A stretch of DNA of 24,852 bases. Origin: Zoopage sp. CT-All (Eukaryota > Zoopagomycota > Zoopagomycetes > Zoopagales > Zoopagaceae). Below the pieces are notes generated by a model. It worked only from the letters and a program-made list of their open reading frames with translations. It searched no databases and was not told the origin of the DNA. The translations under genes were made by a program, and so were the position numbers. Numbering within the stretch: position 1 is the stretch's first letter; every line of letters starts with the position of its first letter. This document shows, in pieces, positions 63-24,852 of the stretch. Where the stretch lies: NCBI GenBank assembly GCA_004114245.1, contig QZWS01000117.1:1-24852 (forward strand). Direction: 5' to 3'.

Positions 63-722
63 ATATGGATAAAGAAAGATAAGACTACTTATAGAAATTT
101 AATCATAATACATAATACTCAGTTAGAGTAATTACTCTTTACTAGTAGTCCTTCTCCATCTTAGCCCATTCTAAAAACAGAATATAAATCTTAAGCCCAA
201 CTTGTTTACCATATGTAGAATACAGTGTATTTTTATTGTACTTCTTACAAGACTACCTCAACCAACTACTATGCCAATTGGCTCTACAAAGACTGTTATC
301 AATTTTATCTACTATCACATTACTCTCTGGCATCCCACCAGCTTGTTTATGAGCATCAAATACATGGCTGGCAAGTAAATATACCTGTTAGTATCCATAC
401 CTACTATAATATTTAAAATACTTATACTCTAGGTAACTAACAAATATACATTACATTCCACAATACTACACTGCAACTGATACCACATACAATACCTACA
501 TCAGCATTGATATCATCATCAATAGTTATATTCTCTTCTTTTTCAACCACCATCCAGGACCCCAGACGGTCCTTGAGTTTACCTGCAACAGATGAGGCGT
601 CCATCAGCCTTGCGCTGGCGTCGTCGATGTTGCCGATCGAGATACAGCGATTTGTCATTAATCTAACACCTTCCGTTCTCCGCCGCGACATCCCAATACG
701 GCCGCCCAGACGGCCACAATCA
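63..722. other. AT-rich intergenic edge, no supported gene
   Basis: About the first 520 bases are clearly richer in A and T than the gene-dense interior, and near 540-560 the composition switches to the GC-richer state. Only short open frames exist: 63 codons at 225-416 starting with GTG, and 97 codons on the minus strand at 437-730 starting with ATG. Neither resembles a family I know and neither has paralogue support. The last 200 bases must hold the promoter of the secreted Cys-rich gene that starts at 723. Confidence 0.6.
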
Positions 723-1349
723 ATGCACATACCATGGGTTTATTTCGCCCTTGGCGCTATAGCCACCATTCTCGGCGTGCCCGCGTCCCTGCCGCAGACA
801 TCCCGCGTAGATGCCTCCGCGTCGCCCTCTGACGCCAGCCTGACCTGGGTCGTCCTCACCCTCACCCAGGAGACCACGCAAACAACCCAGTCCCTATCCA
901 CGTCCACGGTCACCTCGACCGTTTCCGACTCCACGACAACGTCCATCGCAACCTCCGTCGTCACGCTCACCGCCACGCAGACCCTGACGCTGACCAGCAC
1001 CAGCGTCATCACCACCGAGGTGCCGAAGCCGACCGGATCCAGCATCACGCTCAGCGCGTCGACGTCTGCGACTCAAGTCCCCAAGGAAACAGGCAACTTG
1101 ACGGCGGAGTGCGACGCGTTCAAGGCCCGATGTCGCGACGTCTCCTGCGCATTCCGTAACTCGCGTGCCAATTGCGACCCAAGCGGCGTGTGGACGTGTG
1201 TTTGTGGCGCCCAGGTTGTCGGCATCGGGGGAGCAGATGGGCCGGGGATGGTGGTCGGTGCGCGTGGAGGGCTGGGCATGGTGGCGTGGCTGGGCGGTGC
1301 TGCAGTGACGTTCGTCTCGGCCTCGGTGTCTGCATGGCTCGTGCTGTAG
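723..1349 (+). CDS. Small secreted Ser/Thr-rich protein with six-Cys motif, possibly GPI-anchored (paralogue A)
   Basis: A single exon of 208 residues from the ATG at 723. This start was chosen because it places a hydrophobic signal peptide (MHIPWVYFALGAIATILG) at the N terminus; the open frame runs further upstream, with another ATG at 627. Residues ~25-120 are Ser/Thr-rich and probably O-glycosylated. A six-cysteine module follows, spaced C-x6-C-x4-C-x8-C-x7-C-x-C and containing CRD, AFR and WTCVCG. The protein ends in a Gly-rich linker and a hydrophobic tail that reaches the C terminus, as in GPI-anchor signals. The same module, with identical spacing, occurs in the minus-strand gene at 2686-3339. 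I do not recognise the family. A cell-surface or wall role is inferred from architecture only. Confidence 0.75.
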   Translation: MHIPWVYFALGAIATILGVPASLPQTSRVDASASPSDASLTWVVLTLTQETTQTTQSLSTSTVTSTVSDSTTTSIATSVVTLTATQTLTLTSTSVITTEVPKPTGSSITLSASTSATQVPKETGNLTAECDAFKARCRDVSCAFRNSRANCDPSGVWTCVCGAQVVGIGGADGPGMVVGARGGLGMVAWLGGAAVTFVSASVSAWLVL

Positions 1350-2685: not shown

Positions 2686-3339
2686 CTATAGTATGAGGCT
2701 CCACTTGCAGCCATTGGCATGAGCTTCCGCAAGAGCAAGCCACTGATCTGAGAATACGATGAGGAGTATCGGCACGACGAGCGATAACCATCCAAGACCC
2801 ACCAGCGCCGCATTCGCACCACTGCTGCTCCCTCCATCCGTGCTCCCACTCTCCAACAGATCACCACACACGCAAGTCCACGTGCCGTTTCCGGTACAAT
2901 CCACCTTGTACTTGCGAAACGTGCACGATTGATCACGACACTGCTTTCGGAATTCCTGGCACTGGGCGCCAATATCCCCATTTGGATCCACCTTGAACGT
3001 TGGCGTGCTTGTAACAGTGGCAGACGCTGCAGAAGACGTTCCGCTTGTTCCGCTCGTTCCGGATATAGCCGCTGTTGTCGTGGGTGTTGGAGCAGCCGAT
3101 GGGGAAAGGGCGGCAGGTATCGGGGTTGGGGCGGCAGATGGAGGTGCAGCTGTTCCAGTCGCCGAAGGCGTAGCATGGGAACTCGCAACCGGAAGCTTTG
3201 AAAACACAGGTTCCTCGGACGTGAATATTGGTCCGCCGGACTGTGTGACAATTGCCCGAGAAGCGCTGCAGGGGGGAATAAGCAAGGCCAAGGCTGCAAC
3301 GACGGCGACAAGCGTTCGAAGCAACGCCATGTCCCGCAT
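2686..3339 (-). CDS. Small secreted Ser/Thr-rich protein with six-Cys motif (paralogue B)
   Basis: A single exon of 217 residues from the ATG at 3339; a second ATG at 3330 would work equally well. The order is signal peptide (MALLRTLVAVVAALALLIPP, with CSA following), a Ser/Thr/Pro/Ala-rich stalk to ~residue 120, then the six-Cys module C-x6-C-x4-C-x8-C-x7-C-x-C with CRDQSC, TFRK and WTCVCG. A Ser/Gly linker and a hydrophobic segment (ALVGLGWLSLVVPILLIVF) come next. Unlike paralogue A at 723-1349, about 20 polar residues follow that segment, so it could be a transmembrane helix rather than a GPI signal. The two paralogues flank NTA1 in opposite orientations. Function unknown; extracellular or cell-surface location is inferred. 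Confidence 0.78.
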   Translation of the reverse strand: MRDMALLRTLVAVVAALALLIPPCSASRAIVTQSGGPIFTSEEPVFSKLPVASSHATPSATGTAAPPSAAPTPIPAALSPSAAPTPTTTAAISGTSGTSGTSSAASATVTSTPTFKVDPNGDIGAQCQEFRKQCRDQSCTFRKYKVDCTGNGTWTCVCGDLLESGSTDGGSSSGANAALVGLGWLSLVVPILLIVFSDQWLALAEAHANGCKWSLIL

Positions 3340-16476: not shown

Positions 16477-17436
16477 TCACTCCCCCTGAACTTCACTGCC
16501 GGTCGCAGAGTCCTGGTGCATTGAGCGCTCTCGCTGCTTGCCCTTCCCCTTCCCCTTGCTTTTGCTGCTACGGGACAATGGAGAACGGCGACTCTCTGTG
16601 CTTGTCCGCGCCGATTCCGACCTTTCGATCAGCATCTTACTTAGGCATTCGTTGACTTGGGTTGCATCTACTTGGGGAGACAGGCTTGGAGATTGGTTTG
16701 TAAACGCGTCAATGCATACCCAGAAGAGTGTGCTTCCTGCATTCCACCAGAACTCAGTCGGAGTTTCCTGTGTCGGTCGCACAGATAGCACGGGCTGCTC
16801 GCTGCTCGAGCCAGAACTCGCCTGATTGGGCTCCCTGGGATCGGACGGCACACCCTGTAGGCCGTTGTGTAGCGTGTTTTGGCTTTCAGAAGCTGAACCG
16901 ACAGATCGAGTAACCGAGCTAGAACGTGGTTTACTCTGCGGTACCTGAGATGAGCCGCTGGTAGAGTATATACTACTGCGGAAATTGGGCAGGCCACTGC
17001 CAACGAGATCAGGGTTGGACGGAAAAATTCCTTTCTTTGCAAGCGCGTCCAGAACAGTTTTGTTGTCAACCACTGACGGGCGCTGTAAATCAAATTCACG
17101 ACCTGGGCTGGAAGGGCTAGAACTTTCAGCAGCAGTATAGTAGTTAGTGGTGCTTGATTTTGACGATCTTTTAGAAAACGTAGGCGACAATTGGTCACGG
17201 ACACGGGCAGGAATGGATTGCTGCTCAGTGCGGTGTTCTTCAGTAGATGGGGTGGATTTAACGATGAATGACGACTTGGCATGGGTCTGCTCAGCGGTGG
17301 GGTTGAAAGAATTGGATCGGGAAAGGTTCTTGCGTTTCTCGGAGCTGGACTCGGACTTGCCGAAGCAGCAAGGCGTGGTCGGATCCACGGTGTATGCAAG
17401 AATCATGCACAGCAGCAGGAGAGAAGAGCGGAGCAT
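16477..17436 (-). CDS. Secreted-looking Ser-rich protein of unknown function
   Basis: One exon of 319 residues from the ATG at 17436. The start is set by a signal-peptide-like N terminus (MLRSSLLLLCMILAYTVDPT). A Cys pair follows (CCFG). Residues 30-230 are Ser/Thr-rich and disordered in appearance, with a possible short ordered element (DNKTVLDALAKKGIFPSNPD). Near residue 235-280 is a more structured part with aromatic residues (TEFWWNAGSTLFWVCIDAF) and VNECLSKMLIERSES. The C terminus is strongly basic (SKSKGKGKGKQRERS). I do not recognise a family. The basic tail would suit a nuclear or nucleic-acid-binding protein, which conflicts with secretion, so either the signal peptide or the location is uncertain. 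The open frame extends 77 codons upstream, with an alternative ATG at 17547. Confidence 0.6.
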   Translation of the reverse strand: MLRSSLLLLCMILAYTVDPTTPCCFGKSESSSEKRKNLSRSNSFNPTAEQTHAKSSFIVKSTPSTEEHRTEQQSIPARVRDQLSPTFSKRSSKSSTTNYYTAAESSSPSSPGREFDLQRPSVVDNKTVLDALAKKGIFPSNPDLVGSGLPNFRSSIYSTSGSSQVPQSKPRSSSVTRSVGSASESQNTLHNGLQGVPSDPREPNQASSGSSSEQPVLSVRPTQETPTEFWWNAGSTLFWVCIDAFTNQSPSLSPQVDATQVNECLSKMLIERSESARTSTESRRSPLSRSSKSKGKGKGKQRERSMHQDSATGSEVQGE

Positions 17437-17500
17437 TTCGGGCGGTTGAGGCGTTGGGGCTGGTGGGATGGGATGCCGGAAGTTGGTGATGGGTGGGCAA

Positions 17501-17524
17501 CCGCATGGCACCGCATGGCACCGC
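17501..17524. repeat. 10-bp tandem repeat upstream of the Ser-rich secreted gene
   Basis: Two exact copies of CCGCATGGCA followed by CCGC lie about 65-90 bases upstream of the start codon of the minus-strand gene at 17436. They could be regulatory or simply slippage. Confidence 0.55.
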
Positions 17525-17696
17525 CTGTATTGCTGAGTGAGTGACATTGAGCAGCAAGCTACTAGCGCAAACCTGAAAGGGCACAGGTCCTTCACTACGC
17601 GCCCGCCAGACTGTCTCTTGGGGTTACCCCACGCTGCCGGAACAGGCGCTCCTCCCCCCACAGGCACAAGCCATCACTCCTCATCCATGCACGGCT

Positions 17697-19722
17697 TCAC
17701 CTCCTATAGGTCTGCCGCCTGAACCGAAAATGCAACTGCAGCACGCCCCTGTCAAACTTGCACTTGAACCCAAACCGGTGCGAGTACTCCCACTCGCGGC
17801 TTACAATCCGGAACGCAACGTCTTCGTATGGCGGCCCCGCGACAAACCGCAGCAACACCGTGTCGCTCGTTCCCGCTTCGCGCTCGATTTTGTACGTCGG
17901 CGCACGCGTGCGGTCGATCAGGTCGGGGTAAAATATGTTGAACTTGTAGCCCTGCACCACCTTGGGCGGAGGGTTGTCGTGATCGTAGTGCGTTTGGTTG
18001 TATTTGTTCCACTCGTAGCCAGTGCGGACGCTGTTCACATACCGCGGCTTCCGGGGATGGTACTTGTCCTGCCAGTCGTATCTGCGTTCGCCGCCGGATT
18101 CGGAAAATGGCTCCACCGCTTGCTCCTCAAACGCTTCTTCGTCCTCGCTCACATCTTCGTCGTTGACAAACCATTCAAACGCCTCCTCGTTCTCAATGCG
18201 TCGGAAGGCAGCCTTGGCCAGTCGCTCCGTCTTGGCCTCTTGCGCCGTCTCCTTTTCAACACGGACAAGATTGTCCACGCGAGTTTGGATCGTTGCAACG
18301 TTATGTTTGGGAACGAACTTTCGGCGCCGGATTCGTTCGCGATTCAATGTCACCTGTTGGAGCTCCGCTGCGGGATCCTTGACAACTGGCAGGCCTGCGT
18401 CTCGTGCTGTTGGAGCTGCCAGCCTTGCTGGGCTCATTGGTCGCCTCGGTTCCACCGACTCCTTGCGTGGCCTGTGCAGCAGCTCGCGTACAGCAAGCTC
18501 GGCATCCTGTCGCTGACGAACTCGCAGCCTGACGATGCGCCGATTCACCAGTTGCGCATACATCATTTTTAGTTTGGCGCGCGCCTTCCACACAATAACG
18601 CCACGAAGAATGCGCTCCCAGTAGTCAATATCGACGCCAGGACCGCCAACGCCGAGCTTCTCGTCTACCTGTCGATGCAGGTGACGCAGCTCCTCCAGCG
18701 ATTTGGTTGACAGCAGCAAATTCACATCGTTCTGAACAGGCGCTGGGAGTGAACGCGTGCGCGCCAACATGCCCACCGTTAATGGCGGTCGGGCGCTTAC
18801 TGATCCGCGCGACGACAACGCATACGCTTCCATCTCAGCCTGATCGCGCAAGTCGGCCAGACGGTCATCGCACACCAGTAGCATGGCGCGCCAAAACTCT
18901 AAATTCTCCTCCTCTGCTTCAAGCTCCAAATACAACCGGATGTCATCGTAGAGTCCCTCGACGTCACGCAAAGGCATCCCATCAAATATGGCATACGGCT
19001 CGGCAAGATCCACGTCGAGATCATCCATTTCGCGCTCCTCGTCCTCATCGATCAGTAGCCTCTTCGCACGACGTATTGATGGATCCACAGCAAGCCGGAT
19101 CTGCATTGCCAGGAGATCGATTGGGCGCGCGCGGCCGTCGCGCACGCGGATCTCGGCACGACGTCGAGCCTGTTCCAGATGAAACGCCTGCTCTTTGGTT
19201 CGCCAGTCGCCCAGCAGCGCAGATTCCTGCTCCTGTTGCACGCGTATTTTTTCCCGTCCGCGCTCTTCGCGCTCCTGTTCCCTCTGATCCCGCTGTAATC
19301 GCAATCGCTCCAGCTCCGTTTCGGTTTCCATTCGCAATCGGCCACGATCGGAGTGCGATCGCCCAAGCTTGCGATCTCTCTCCCGTTTCTTTGACCACAC
19401 AAATTTTGCATTCAAGTTATCATCGTTGAACGGGTTTGCCACGTCGACGTATGTTGAGACGCCGGTGAGGCGCTCGGCAAGCTCGGAGATCTCAACGCTC
19501 GCATGAACCCGCTGTGGCGGTGGCGACTTCGAGGCATCATGCCGTCGATGCTTCGATTTACTCTTCTCGTCTTTCTATAGGGGTCGTGGTAGCTTGGGAG
19601 CGAGGGCTGAAATCACCTACCCGAGTGGATCTCCTGCGATCATCGCCATCGCCATCATTGCGCCAGTGGTGCGGCAAAGGGCTCTGCCGCCGGCTGTGTC
19701 GTTCATATTGAGTGCCAGACAT
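17697..19722 (-). CDS. CACTIN: Cactin, spliceosome-associated protein
   Basis: Cactin is a conserved nuclear spliceosome component (fission yeast Cay1) needed for accurate splicing. Two exons, 19722-19621 and 19574-17697, with a 46-bp intron, give 659 residues. The N terminus (MSGTQYERHSRRQSPL) and the region after the junction (KDEKSKSKHRRH) are basic and RS-like. ANPFNDDNLNAKFVWSKK at ~80 is the family's NPFxDxxL-FxW element, followed by a charged coiled coil. Residues ~185-370 match the middle domain (IDLLAMQIRLAVDPSIRRAK, LEFWRAMLLVCDDRL). The last ~125 residues are the highly conserved C-terminal domain (YDWQDKYHPRKPRYVNSV, GYKFNIFYPDLIDRT, FRIVSREWEYSHRFGFKC, LQLHFRFRRQTYRR). A start inside exon 2 would be GTG only, so the upstream exon is needed. 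It is divergent from the DDI1-like gene. Confidence 0.92.
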
Positions 19723-19837
19723 GCTCGACTGATGCAAAATGCGTCGGTGCGATCGCAAGGAGCTCACGCAGTCGATGATGTTGGGGTGCGCCGTTGACTG
19801 CTTGCCCTTCGAACCTCCACCCACACATACAGTCGTT
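19723..19837. promoter_or_regulatory. Short divergent promoter between Cactin and the DDI1-like gene
   Basis: Only 115 bases separate the Cactin start (minus) and the chosen start of the DDI1-like gene (plus), so the two promoters overlap. An upstream in-frame ATG at 19739 would shrink the gap to 16 bases, which is one reason to prefer the ATG at 19838. No box motif is evident. Confidence 0.45.
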
Positions 19838-20647
19838 ATGATAGTCCGCTTTCATGAATCCCCTGCCATTGCACTTCTCCTTGTATGCATGGCCGCTGCT
19901 GCTTGCACACTTCTTGCCACCGTTCACGCATCCGGTGGCTTCAAGCTCGGCGCGGTCAGCATCGATGACCAAAAGAATATCAAGAATAACCATATCAGCG
20001 CTAAAGCACACCATCCCGAGACATTGGGCCGAGCCGGCATGCTCTATGTCCCAGTGACTATCAAAGGTCACTCGATTGCGGCGTTTGTGGACTGCGGCGC
20101 ACAGTCCACTCTCATGTCACCAGAGCTGGCAATAAAGCTTGGATTGAGTCGATTGATTGATACTCGCGTCACTGGTGTCACGCTTGGTATTGGCTCGTCA
20201 CCGGCAAAGGTCCTTGGCCGAATCTATTCGGCGCCCATGATTATCGGCGACAGTGAGGTGGAGCTCACATTTACCATACTCGAGTTTGGACTGGGTTTCA
20301 GCTCCACTGCTCTGATGCTCGGTCTCGATGCGCTGAAACGGCTGAAGACGGTTATTGATTTGAAGGAGAATGTGCTTAGGATTGGCAGAGGAGTGGTGAA
20401 TTTCCTTACTGACGAAGAGCGACGCGGGCTTGAAAACAGCGCAAGGCCACTTGCACCGTCTGGGTTTCATTCGCCCTCGCCTACTCGCCATAGCAAAACC
20501 ACAGTTGCCACTGCCACCCCCTGGGAAATTTACGCGCAGACACTGGCTGACGTGTTCAAGATTGATGTCGAAAAGGCACTCAACACACTTAATCAGACTG
20601 GGGGAGATGTTGGCAAGGCTATGACAATCTTGATAGGATCGTTGTAG
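19838..20647 (+). CDS. DDI1-like aspartic protease with UBA domain, signal-peptide-like N terminus and DCG active site
   Basis: Single exon, 269 residues from the ATG at 19838 (in-frame ATG also at 19739). Residues ~67-200 match the retroviral-like protease domain of Ddi1, which cleaves heavily ubiquitinated substrates: GMLYVPVTIKGHSIAAFVD, LGLSRLIDTRVTGV, VLGRIYSAPMIIG, LMLGLDALKRLKTVIDLK and ENVLRIG are all Ddi1-like. The catalytic motif, normally D-[TS]-G-A-Q, reads D85-C-G-A-Q-S-T. The C-terminal ~45 residues (YAQTLADVFKIDVEKALNTL, GGDVGKAMTILIGSL) resemble a UBA domain. Ddi1's N-terminal ubiquitin-like domain is missing; instead there is a hydrophobic segment (AIALLLVCMAAAACTLLATV) ending HASGG, like a signal peptide or signal anchor. 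A diverged secreted or ER-anchored paralogue is the simplest reading. A retroelement protease is unlikely because UBA and Ddi1 flanks are present. Confidence 0.82.
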   Translation: MIVRFHESPAIALLLVCMAAAACTLLATVHASGGFKLGAVSIDDQKNIKNNHISAKAHHPETLGRAGMLYVPVTIKGHSIAAFVDCGAQSTLMSPELAIKLGLSRLIDTRVTGVTLGIGSSPAKVLGRIYSAPMIIGDSEVELTFTILEFGLGFSSTALMLGLDALKRLKTVIDLKENVLRIGRGVVNFLTDEERRGLENSARPLAPSGFHSPSPTRHSKTTVATATPWEIYAQTLADVFKIDVEKALNTLNQTGGDVGKAMTILIGSL

Positions 20648-20797: not shown

Positions 20798-21895
20798 ATG
20801 ATCATACACTGCGCGATATTCACTGCAATACTTGCCATCTTTTTCACCAGAGGCGCAGCCGTCGAGGCAAGCTTGCACTCTGCTTTGACCAATGCACACA
20901 ACGGTGACATGCACGATTTTGACTATTGGAAAGAGGTTGCTAGCATTCTCAGATTGCGTCGATATCGTGATAAGAGAAAGAATTCCTTCTCCTCCCTTTT
21001 AGAGGAGAACGACGAGCTCTTTGAGCATAGCAAGGATTCGACATTGGTCCCACCGCATCAAGCTGTTCCGTGGCAACATTCTACCATCCAACCTGCTCAA
21101 CCCCATAATGCTGCTCAAATCCTGATAGATTTGTCGGCATATAGCGACAGTGAATCACCCATAGACCTAACTGACGATCACCCTCCGCATTCAAAGAGGC
21201 AACCCACAGCCTTGTCGTCCACTAGTAAAAGATCCCCGAGGGTAGTTATTTCACTTGGCAGTAAGAATAAGCAACAATCCTCTGAGACCAGCGCCGCTCC
21301 TCGACCTGGATTGGTCTCTCCGAAAACTGACTATTTATCCAAAGAGAGGTTGTCCCAGGTGGGTGTAACTGCTGCCGAAAATAATATGCCTGTATTGAAC
21401 TTTGGCATCGCAACTACTGCCAGAAACCAACCAGAGCAGCCTAGCAATCCATCGAAGAACGGAAAGCGCGTGAGAGATGGCGATGGTGAATTATCCGCGG
21501 AAGAGGTCACCGGGCCTGATCCGAAGCGGGTTCGACTTGAGAGCCACTCACCAGGCAATCGCCTTCCACATTCAAAGAATCAACCCACAGCCTTGTCACC
21601 CATTGAGACTCTCTCAATCACCGAATGTCGGGACATATACAACACATTGTCAAAACATGAAAAGTATTATATGCGCAATTTCCTTGAAAACAAGGTTGGG
21701 TGTGACCACTGCAACGAGACAATGAAGCTGAGCGAGGTTAAAAAGCACTATCTCGACAAACATAAGGGCATATATCCCACAAAGCCGATCGCATGTTCCG
21801 ACTGCGGAGGCAAAATTAAATCAAAGTGGACTCCATACAAACATGTGTACACCACAGCGCACATGTTTGTGCATGGTAAGCTCGGAGGTATCTAG
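20798..21895 (+). CDS. Two-zinc-finger protein with signal-peptide-like N terminus, SIM-like and NLS-like motifs
   Basis: Single exon, 365 residues from the ATG at 20798. Residues 1-24 (MIIHCAIFTAILAIFFTRGA, then AVEA) look like a signal peptide. The middle is low-complexity and polar. It holds two hydrophobic-acidic stretches like SUMO-interaction motifs (ILIDLS at 108-113; PIDLTDD at 121-127), basic clusters (KNGKRVR at 220-226; PKRVRLES at 242-249) and two copies of HSK[RN]QPTALS. The C-terminal part has two zinc-finger-like units: C302-x2-C305...H317-x4-H322 and C333-x2-C336...H349-x5-H355. The same pattern recurs in the degenerate gene at 24175-24581. I know no named family. It is either a secreted protein that enters a nucleus or a nuclear protein whose hydrophobic start is misleading. 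It follows the DDI1-like gene after 150 bases, same strand. Confidence 0.72.
   Translation: MIIHCAIFTAILAIFFTRGAAVEASLHSALTNAHNGDMHDFDYWKEVASILRLRRYRDKRKNSFSSLLEENDELFEHSKDSTLVPPHQAVPWQHSTIQPAQPHNAAQILIDLSAYSDSESPIDLTDDHPPHSKRQPTALSSTSKRSPRVVISLGSKNKQQSSETSAAPRPGLVSPKTDYLSKERLSQVGVTAAENNMPVLNFGIATTARNQPEQPSNPSKNGKRVRDGDGELSAEEVTGPDPKRVRLESHSPGNRLPHSKNQPTALSPIETLSITECRDIYNTLSKHEKYYMRNFLENKVGCDHCNETMKLSEVKKHYLDKHKGIYPTKPIACSDCGGKIKSKWTPYKHVYTTAHMFVHGKLGGI
21188..21216 (+). repeat. 29-bp direct repeat, copy 1 (inside the zinc-finger gene)
   Basis: Matches 21569-21597 at 27 of 29 bases. Both copies are in the same frame and encode HSK[R/N]QPTALS, so the protein carries the peptide twice, 127 residues apart. 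Confidence 0.85.
21569..21597 (+). repeat. 29-bp direct repeat, copy 2 (inside the zinc-finger gene)
   Basis: Second copy of the repeat at 21188-21216, with two differences that change Arg to Asn. It lies between the NLS-like cluster and the zinc fingers. Confidence 0.85.
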
Positions 21896-24174: not shown

Positions 24175-24581
24175 TTACTTCTTACTGCTTAATGCCTTCT
24201 CAACTGCCTTCATGTGCATCACTTGGTAATAATGTTCAATGACTCTCCTGATCCCTCCTGACCATGAACAAGTACTGCAGTTGATTGTCTCTGTAGGCTG
24301 GCCATGGTGTTTCCTCTTATAATGCCTTAGAAGGTTTCTACTGATGGAGAGGAGTTGCACTTGCTGCACTTGACAGGCTGCTTCATATACGCAAAATAAG
24401 GCTTACTTTCCTCATCTGATAAATTAAGAGTATGTTTTCTGCGTTCAGATCTTTTAGTACTATCTTCATGCTGCTCCTTGTGTATTGTGCATTTCTTTAC
24501 AATGCCACATGGTTGTTTAGCTTTCTTGGTGTGGGTAATACTAGGGTCATGCATTGCCAAATAATATTGATCAAGATCCAT
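24175..24581 (-). pseudogene. Frameshifted relative of the two-zinc-finger gene
   Basis: Read on the minus strand from a possible ATG at 24581 (MDLDQYYLAMHDPSI), a Lys/Glu-rich polar region leads to KCSKCN, the first half of a zinc finger, and then runs into a stop near 24327. The second half (RNLLRHYKRKHHG) and a second finger (INCSTC ... EHYYQVMH) continue in another frame to the stop at 24175. The break lies within about 20 bases around 24335, too short for an intron, and is one base short of the spacing seen at 20798-21895. C-x2-C, H-x4-H, C-x2-C, H-x5-H order is the same in both genes. It is a decayed copy or a sequencing error in an otherwise usable gene. An upstream exon (MLGLTRKNVVWSR, 24763 to 24725) before a GTAAGT donor is possible. 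It lies in AT-rich DNA. Confidence 0.65.
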
Positions 24582-24656
24582 ATAATCTAAAGAAGGTGGG
24601 AGAGGACTTTGGATGGAAGCAAGAGACAGATGATTCCCTGGGATATGAGACATGTA

Positions 24657-24718
24657 TGTGGTGCAGCAGTAGAAAAGTAGCAGTCTCTTTTCTGAGACAT
24701 TAAGTTCCACAAGACTTA
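24657..24718 (-). repeat. Right arm of a 62-bp inverted repeat
   Basis: Reverse complement of 1-62 with 61 of 62 bases identical. On the minus strand it begins just after AGAG with TAAGTCTTG, so it spans a possible GTAAGT splice donor upstream of the degenerate zinc-finger gene and probably lies in that gene's 5' region or first intron. Confidence 0.9.
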
Positions 24719-24761
24719 CTCTGCTCCACACCACATTTTTTCTTGTGAGTCCAAGCATAAT

Positions 24762-24852
24762 ATGGACGAAACTACCGGCGCGGAATCGGTACACTCGTTC
24801 GGGTCGGCAACCACCGGCCTGGGGACAGACGGGGTCTGCGAGGCCCTGTCAG
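24762..24852 (+). CDS. Possible N terminus of a further gene, cut by the window edge
   Basis: An ATG at 24762 opens a frame to the end of the window (30 codons): MDETTGAESVHSFGSATTGL and on. The composition turns GC-rich right here, as in the genuine genes of the window, whereas the DNA to the left is AT-rich. The peptide is acidic, then Ser/Thr/Gly-rich. It is too short to identify. Confidence 0.4.
   Translation, partial: MDETTGAESVHSFGSATTGLGTDGVCEALS

Follow-up and report, generated by a model that had tools for sequence, protein, structure and literature searches.

The locus and its genome

The window analysed here, a stretch of 24,852 nucleotides, is an entire contig (QZWS01000117.1) from Zoopage sp. 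CT-All, for which the genome set amounts to 8.62 Mb in 419 contigs. Positions 19838..20647 (+) hold a single-exon ORF of 269 codons plus a stop codon, and the coordinates and frame first assigned to it were exact on recheck. The encoded Ddi1-like protein begins with a signal-peptide-like leader (residues 1–31, 19838..19930, +), continues with a retropepsin (RVP) domain (residues 60–195, 20015..20422, +) bearing the active-site triad Asp85-Cys86-Gly87 (DCG; 20090..20098, +), and ends in a UBA-like three-helix bundle (residues 229–268, 20522..20641, +). The GC3 of the ORF is 0.55, and that of the other window genes ranges from 0.40 to 0.88, with gpi507 excluded from the range. Homologues were collected by a word-based search, which gave 2 proteins, and by a second search from a 3-row alignment, which gave 89; residue counts refer to all 91 alignment rows, and structure prediction used 62 of them. 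The AlphaFold2 model of the Ddi1-like protein (mean pLDDT 84.8, above 90 for the majority of ten-residue blocks in its retropepsin and UBA parts) consists of a helix at residues 9–31, a retropepsin fold, a low-confidence linker at residues 209–225, and three helices at residues 229–268. A short helical stretch after the leader aligns with one that precedes the retropepsin domain in homologues.

The DNA upstream of the ORF is occupied by a divergent gene for cactin (17697..19574, −), recognised by PF09732 and PF10312 and conserved over 17697–19442. The cactin reading frame stays open as far as a 3′ splice site located just above 19574 (−), and its first exon probably starts at the ATG at 19722 (−), leaving 115 bp between this start codon and that of the Ddi1-like ORF at 19838 (+). 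An in-frame ATG at 19739, which would lengthen the Ddi1-like protein by 33 residues, is an unlikely start because it would lie only 16 bp from the codon at which cactin probably begins on the opposite strand. The first matches of cactin are from early-branching fungi (41%–45% identity), and its sequence appears to place the genome among these fungi without finer resolution: grouping with Syncephalis has an SH-aLRT support of 67 in one tree and values of 42/25 in another, and placements with Synchytrium (p-AU 0.167) or Basidiobolus (p-AU 0.205) are not rejected. The genome is fast-evolving in general. In the retropepsin tree, the end branch of the Ddi1-like protein is the longest, at 2.15. Extra acceleration of this gene does not follow from this, since cactin of the same genome likewise sits on a very long branch (1.44 and 1.66 in two trees).

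The preliminary description had called the protein a paralogue. A search of the 8.62-Mb set for a second, canonical Ddi1 found none, whether the query was PF09668, the Ddi1 of Spongospora, the protein itself, or the HDD; the only other match to the Spongospora query was a UBA region on another contig (C83, E 0.013). A complete genome would be expected to hold 14 proteasome subunits and nine chaperonins. Five of the former and seven of the latter were detected, which makes about 12 of the 23 markers, in a count that treats pieces on the same contig as one gene and may miss genes split by introns. Because the genome set is incomplete, the missing second copy is weak evidence, and the status of paralogue is unproven. 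Nine UBL matches in the genome set, inspected by eye, include two ubiquitin–ribosomal fusions and one match in a USP-type reading frame; no Ddi1 N terminus was recognised among the nine.

The retropepsin domain and the C terminus

Assignment of the protease domain to the Ddi1 family, proposed from the sequence at the outset, is borne out by several comparisons. In a Pfam search of the protein, PF09668 (Asp_protease, Ddi1-type) matches residues 60–174 with an E value of 1.3e-26. Matches to Ddi1 sequences in the PDB extend to residue 194; at E ≤ 0.1, they comprise eight distinct chains, which are Ddi1 retropepsin domains, and the yeast Ddi1 structure 2i1a is matched with E 6e-25. When the AlphaFold2 model was used as the Foldseek query, ranks 1–29 were Ddi1 retropepsins from yeast, human, Cryptosporidium, Toxoplasma, and Leishmania, with identities to the Ddi1 structures of 34%–41%. 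The catalytic Asp, Gly, and Ala, the flap glycines, and the GLD motif, which are among the 17 columns invariant over 62 rows, are all retained.

The triad itself is unusual. Residues 85–87 are encoded by GACTGCGGC at 20090–20098, so the DCG reported earlier is present in the DNA. The D-S/T-G triad of the Ddi1 family is found in 88 of the other 90 alignment rows (DSG in 87, DTG in one) and SSA in the remaining two, with no second DCG in a sample that is uneven because many of the 90 homologues are from plants. The two SSA rows are the olive Ddi1 proteins P0209 and P0211, which are probably not active proteases, judging from SSA at the place of the expected DSG. According to an extract from PMC7072860, Ddi proteases carry Ser, or Thr in yeast, at the middle triad position, and this residue holds the dimer together. 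A single-base error at the TGC codon (20093–20095) could conceivably lie behind the DCG. If the codon is correct, what would a cysteine mean for catalysis? The dimeric HIV-1 protease offers a comparison: its T26C mutant, attributed to Strisovsky et al. in 2000, reportedly has Asp-Cys-Gly at the active site and near-normal activity, and an Ala at the same position is said to abolish activity. By analogy with this variant, DCG is probably compatible with catalysis, and the altered activity that had been suggested for the protein is doubtful. The protein is probably still a dimeric protease.

Cys86 is also the sole cysteine after the leader. Positions 97 and 101, which are Cys in 80 and 79 of the 90 homologues (88%–89%), are both Leu here. 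Over residues 60–195, the other 90 rows contain no cysteine in one case (P0184), two in three cases, three in 21, four in 58, five in five, and six in two. This pattern of loss would fit an oxidising compartment; as the genome is fast-evolving, the clue is suggestive only, and general fast evolution could account both for the lost cysteines and for the long retropepsin branch.

The proposed UBA-like C terminus stands as a fold and is faint as a sequence. No UBA model appeared in the Pfam search of the protein, and the C terminus is not among eight UBA matches in the genome search; the best UBA-type Pfam models reach E values of 0.062 and 0.065, both below their cut-offs. The region is modelled as a three-helix bundle both with and without an alignment, and many of its top structural matches, with weak scores, are UBA or UBA-like domains. 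We thus describe the C terminus as having a predicted UBA-like fold. The L-G-F loop found in many Ddi1 UBAs appears as F-K-I when aligned by eye, a placement that differs slightly in the MAFFT columns. The only N-glycosylation sequon of the protein lies within this domain.

The leader and competing readings of the N terminus

The preliminary description had also proposed that the ubiquitin-like domain was swapped for a signal-peptide-like segment, and this is upheld by what precedes the protease domain. The Pfam search of the protein returned no UBL at E ≤ 0.1; likewise, HDD (PF24669) is absent from the protein at E ≤ 0.1 and from the genome set at E ≤ 1. An upstream exon encoding a UBL and splicing past the hydrophobic segment, which had been named as the finding that would overturn the swap, was sought in six of the longer upstream segments of the plus strand, those nearest the ORF and lying within 19288–19999; none of the six contains a UBL at E ≤ 10. 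In 16 of the 91 rows, including the Ddi1-like protein, the catalytic Asp lies before residue 140; Ddi1 homologues with short N termini therefore exist in the collection, some perhaps as fragments. None of the other 15 passes a crude test for a signal peptide. Indeed, the Ddi1-like protein is the only one of the 91 to do so, and the same retropepsin–UBA layout with a leader was not found in relatives among these rows, making this a case from one genome. The test is a home-made hydropathy heuristic rather than a trained predictor. The window has 259 open ATG starts, counting both strands, and at a threshold of 2.2 eight of them pass; these include the start at 19838 and three further starts (20798; 3339 and 3330) that belong to two genes with genuine-looking leaders.

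The domain order, the in-frame hydrophobic leader, the Ddi1 retropepsin fold with its catalytic Asp, and the DCG can all be read from the sequence. On this basis, we consider it fairly likely that the gene encodes a Ddi1-derived retropepsin–UBA protein with a leader in place of the UBL and HDD, and that this protein enters the secretory pathway.

The chief rival is a membrane anchor. Residues 8–35 contain no D, E, K, or R, the highest 19-residue mean hydropathy in the leader is 2.54, and the segment is modelled as one long helix. A hydrophobic stretch of this length could serve as an uncleaved signal anchor, tethering the protease and UBA to the ER or plasma membrane with the domains in the lumen or, if inverted, in the cytosol. 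The side-chain charges that precede the stretch, R4 and E7, cancel, so the orientation is ambiguous, and a form facing the cytosol would solve the problem of a ligand for the UBA. Against an anchor, the segment has an Ala-rich core followed by VHA|SG, with possible cleavage after A31, which by eye is more like a cleavable leader. We regard the anchor as rather unlikely.

It is also conceivable, with still lower probability, that the product is an ordinary shortened cytosolic Ddi1, in which a downstream start or a splice that skips the leader yields a leaderless retropepsin–UBA protein. Such shortening has precedents: an extract from PMC9168383 states that UBA and/or UBL are absent from the Ddi1 proteins of a few organisms. 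A GT...AG stretch at 19883–19959 could provide the splice. Its donor, GTATGC, also occurs in one measured intron, the share of pyrimidines close to its acceptor falls within the measured range, and its removal would join an ATG at 19854 in frame with the retropepsin domain (by eye). Eight introns measured in chaperonin and proteasome genes of the same genome are unlike it: they are 90–127 nt long with 39%–50% GC, a branch-like motif in all eight, and stops in two or three frames, whereas the stretch measures 77 nt with 62% GC, lacks every branch-point motif that was sought, and is free of stops in all three frames. Introns shorter than 90 nt may exist, given a cactin candidate as short as 46 nt. 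Length, GC content, the missing branch motif, and the missing stops nonetheless argue against the stretch as an intron that removes the leader, although its donor and pyrimidines do not count against it, and the stretch is most likely coding. Moreover, with 19883–19959 removed, translation from the ATG at 19838 would meet a stop, and the first Met beyond the leader is residue 68, within the retropepsin domain. Very improbable is a decaying Ddi1 duplicate that reads through a hydrophobic stretch, with the DCG and UBA loop reflecting relaxed selection or sequencing error: the protein departs from the consensus at 22 of 62 strongly conserved columns, the branch is long, and the UBA loop is altered, but the 269-codon frame is open, the catalytic and flap residues are kept, most retropepsin and UBA blocks are modelled with high confidence, the search found no second copy, and the genome is fast-evolving anyway.

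Possible sites of action, known relatives, and neighbouring genes

How would a protein with a secretory leader work? In the reading that we favour, the UBL and HDD before the retropepsin domain would have been replaced by a cleavable signal peptide, and removal of the leader would leave a mature retropepsin–UBA protein in the secretory pathway. Two chains would dimerise, with Cys86 taking the place of Ser/Thr in the hydrogen bonds of the “fireman’s grip,” and the dimer would cut proteins by means of Asp85. The UBA-like domain possibly provides targeting. The place of work would be an oxidising compartment or the outside of the cell, and the final site may, more tentatively, be a host or prey cell. 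That last step may hold because the gene downstream is a member of an expanded and apparently secreted family, and because the cytosol of another organism could offer a ligand for the UBA. An extract from PMC7369636 describes human DDI2 as a ubiquitin-directed endoprotease that cuts NRF1, and, given this activity, a retropepsin–UBA protein could in principle act alone as a ubiquitin-directed protease. An extracellular enzyme of this kind would need access to host cytosol or a different ligand. In its most elaborate form, the idea is that Ddi1 has become an exported weapon of a fungal parasite or predator, with the UBL swapped for a signal peptide, the cysteines purged, the UBA steering the enzyme to ubiquitinated proteins of the host, and the clasp cysteine able to switch or lock the dimer by oxidation or a cross-dimer disulfide. 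We treat this elaboration as possible but doubtful, and delivery to a host as conjecture.

Comparison with known systems sets the protein apart in several ways. First, Ddi1 and DDI2 have the architecture UBL-HDD-RVP-UBA; the Ddi1-like protein shares with them homology over the full retropepsin domain, the catalytic Asp, and a UBA-like C terminus in the position typical of yeast, but lacks the UBL and HDD and differs in its leader, its DCG, the two conserved Cys changed to Leu, and the altered UBA loop. The Ddi1 family is described in an extract from PMC5028754 as RVP with UBL. Second, the text available from PMC12239564 reports that RloA of Pseudomonas aeruginosa is likewise a retropepsin with an N-terminal signal peptide and that its relative RimB is without one. 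RloA differs in belonging to the bacterial RimB lineage and in its DTG motif, its likeness to Ddi1 is at the level of the fold only, and a UBA is not mentioned in that part of the source (PMC12239564). Ddi1 proteins without UBL or UBA, and secreted bacterial retropepsins, are therefore already known. Searches of an open-licence library turned up no Ddi1 that is secreted or carries a signal peptide, and a report elsewhere is possible; a Ddi1-type retropepsin–UBA protein with a secretory leader and DCG was found neither in that library nor in protein searches. In an extract from a Plasmodium review that also mentions Ddi1 (PMC11532105), the words “signal peptide” concern signal peptide peptidase. 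Third, the DCG of HIV-1 protease is said to be that of a laboratory mutant, whereas the cysteine of the Ddi1-like protein is natural.

What are the implications? Current descriptions of Ddi1 place it in the cytosol and nucleus as a ubiquitin shuttle and protease, a location that the leader of the present protein argues against. A natural swap of the UBL for a leader would uncouple the protease–UBA function from the proteasome, and a secretory Ddi1 would place a ubiquitin-directed protease where ubiquitin is unexpected. Likewise, DCG in a natural retropepsin would demonstrate that Cys can serve as the clasp residue outside the laboratory.

The downstream neighbour (20798..21895, +) has a signal-peptide-like start and a C terminus of the CxxC/HxxxxH type, and no Pfam family matches it above the cut-off. 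It is one of a large family, represented in its own genome by 61 matching stretches at E ≤ 1, the neighbour itself counted. Twenty-five of 30 family loci (L021–L050) were examined, the other five being further matches in the same reading frames. Among the 25 are 19 members with complete 5′ ends, 13 of which start in a signal-peptide-like manner at a hydropathy threshold of 1.9 (the window scan having used the stricter threshold given above). The starts are mostly variants of one segment, as judged by eye, the bodies are divergent, and the C termini bear CxxC and HxxxxH motifs. These sequences point to a large family of apparently secreted proteins in the organism. The family may be like the ZiF effectors of Magnaporthe oryzae, which an extract from PMC11213319 describes as zinc-finger-like secreted families of a host-associated fungus; the likeness is by description, and the Ddi1-like protein is not of the zinc-finger type. 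Borrowing of the Ddi1-like leader from this family was considered and set aside: scores as good as the best arise in 143 of 500 region-wise shuffles (0.286), so there is no detectable kinship. The Ddi1-like gene could lie next to one of the many family members by chance.

Two of the 13 members with signal-peptide-like starts, L034 (contig C251) and L036 (contig C4), share their first 80 residues, and the genome set may, in view of this identity, contain recent duplicates or unmerged haplotypes. Another frame of the window, 24327–24794 (−), has an end, KPYFAYMKQPVKCSKC, that by eye resembles family members such as L033; it stops after the first CxxC and is probably a cut-short member, with a direct comparison to the gene at 20798 that is not significant (E 0.040). 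The frame at 16477–17667 (−) has no Pfam match and fails the signal-peptide heuristic; after an internal Met it has a signal-peptide-like segment, MLRSSLLLLCMILA, and its body, rich in Ser and Pro, is of low complexity. Finally, the proteins encoded at 507–1349 (+) and 2686–3339 (−) are rich in Ser and Thr, have in common a Cys-rich motif of 40 residues (48% identity, E 5e-14), and are perhaps surface-anchored.
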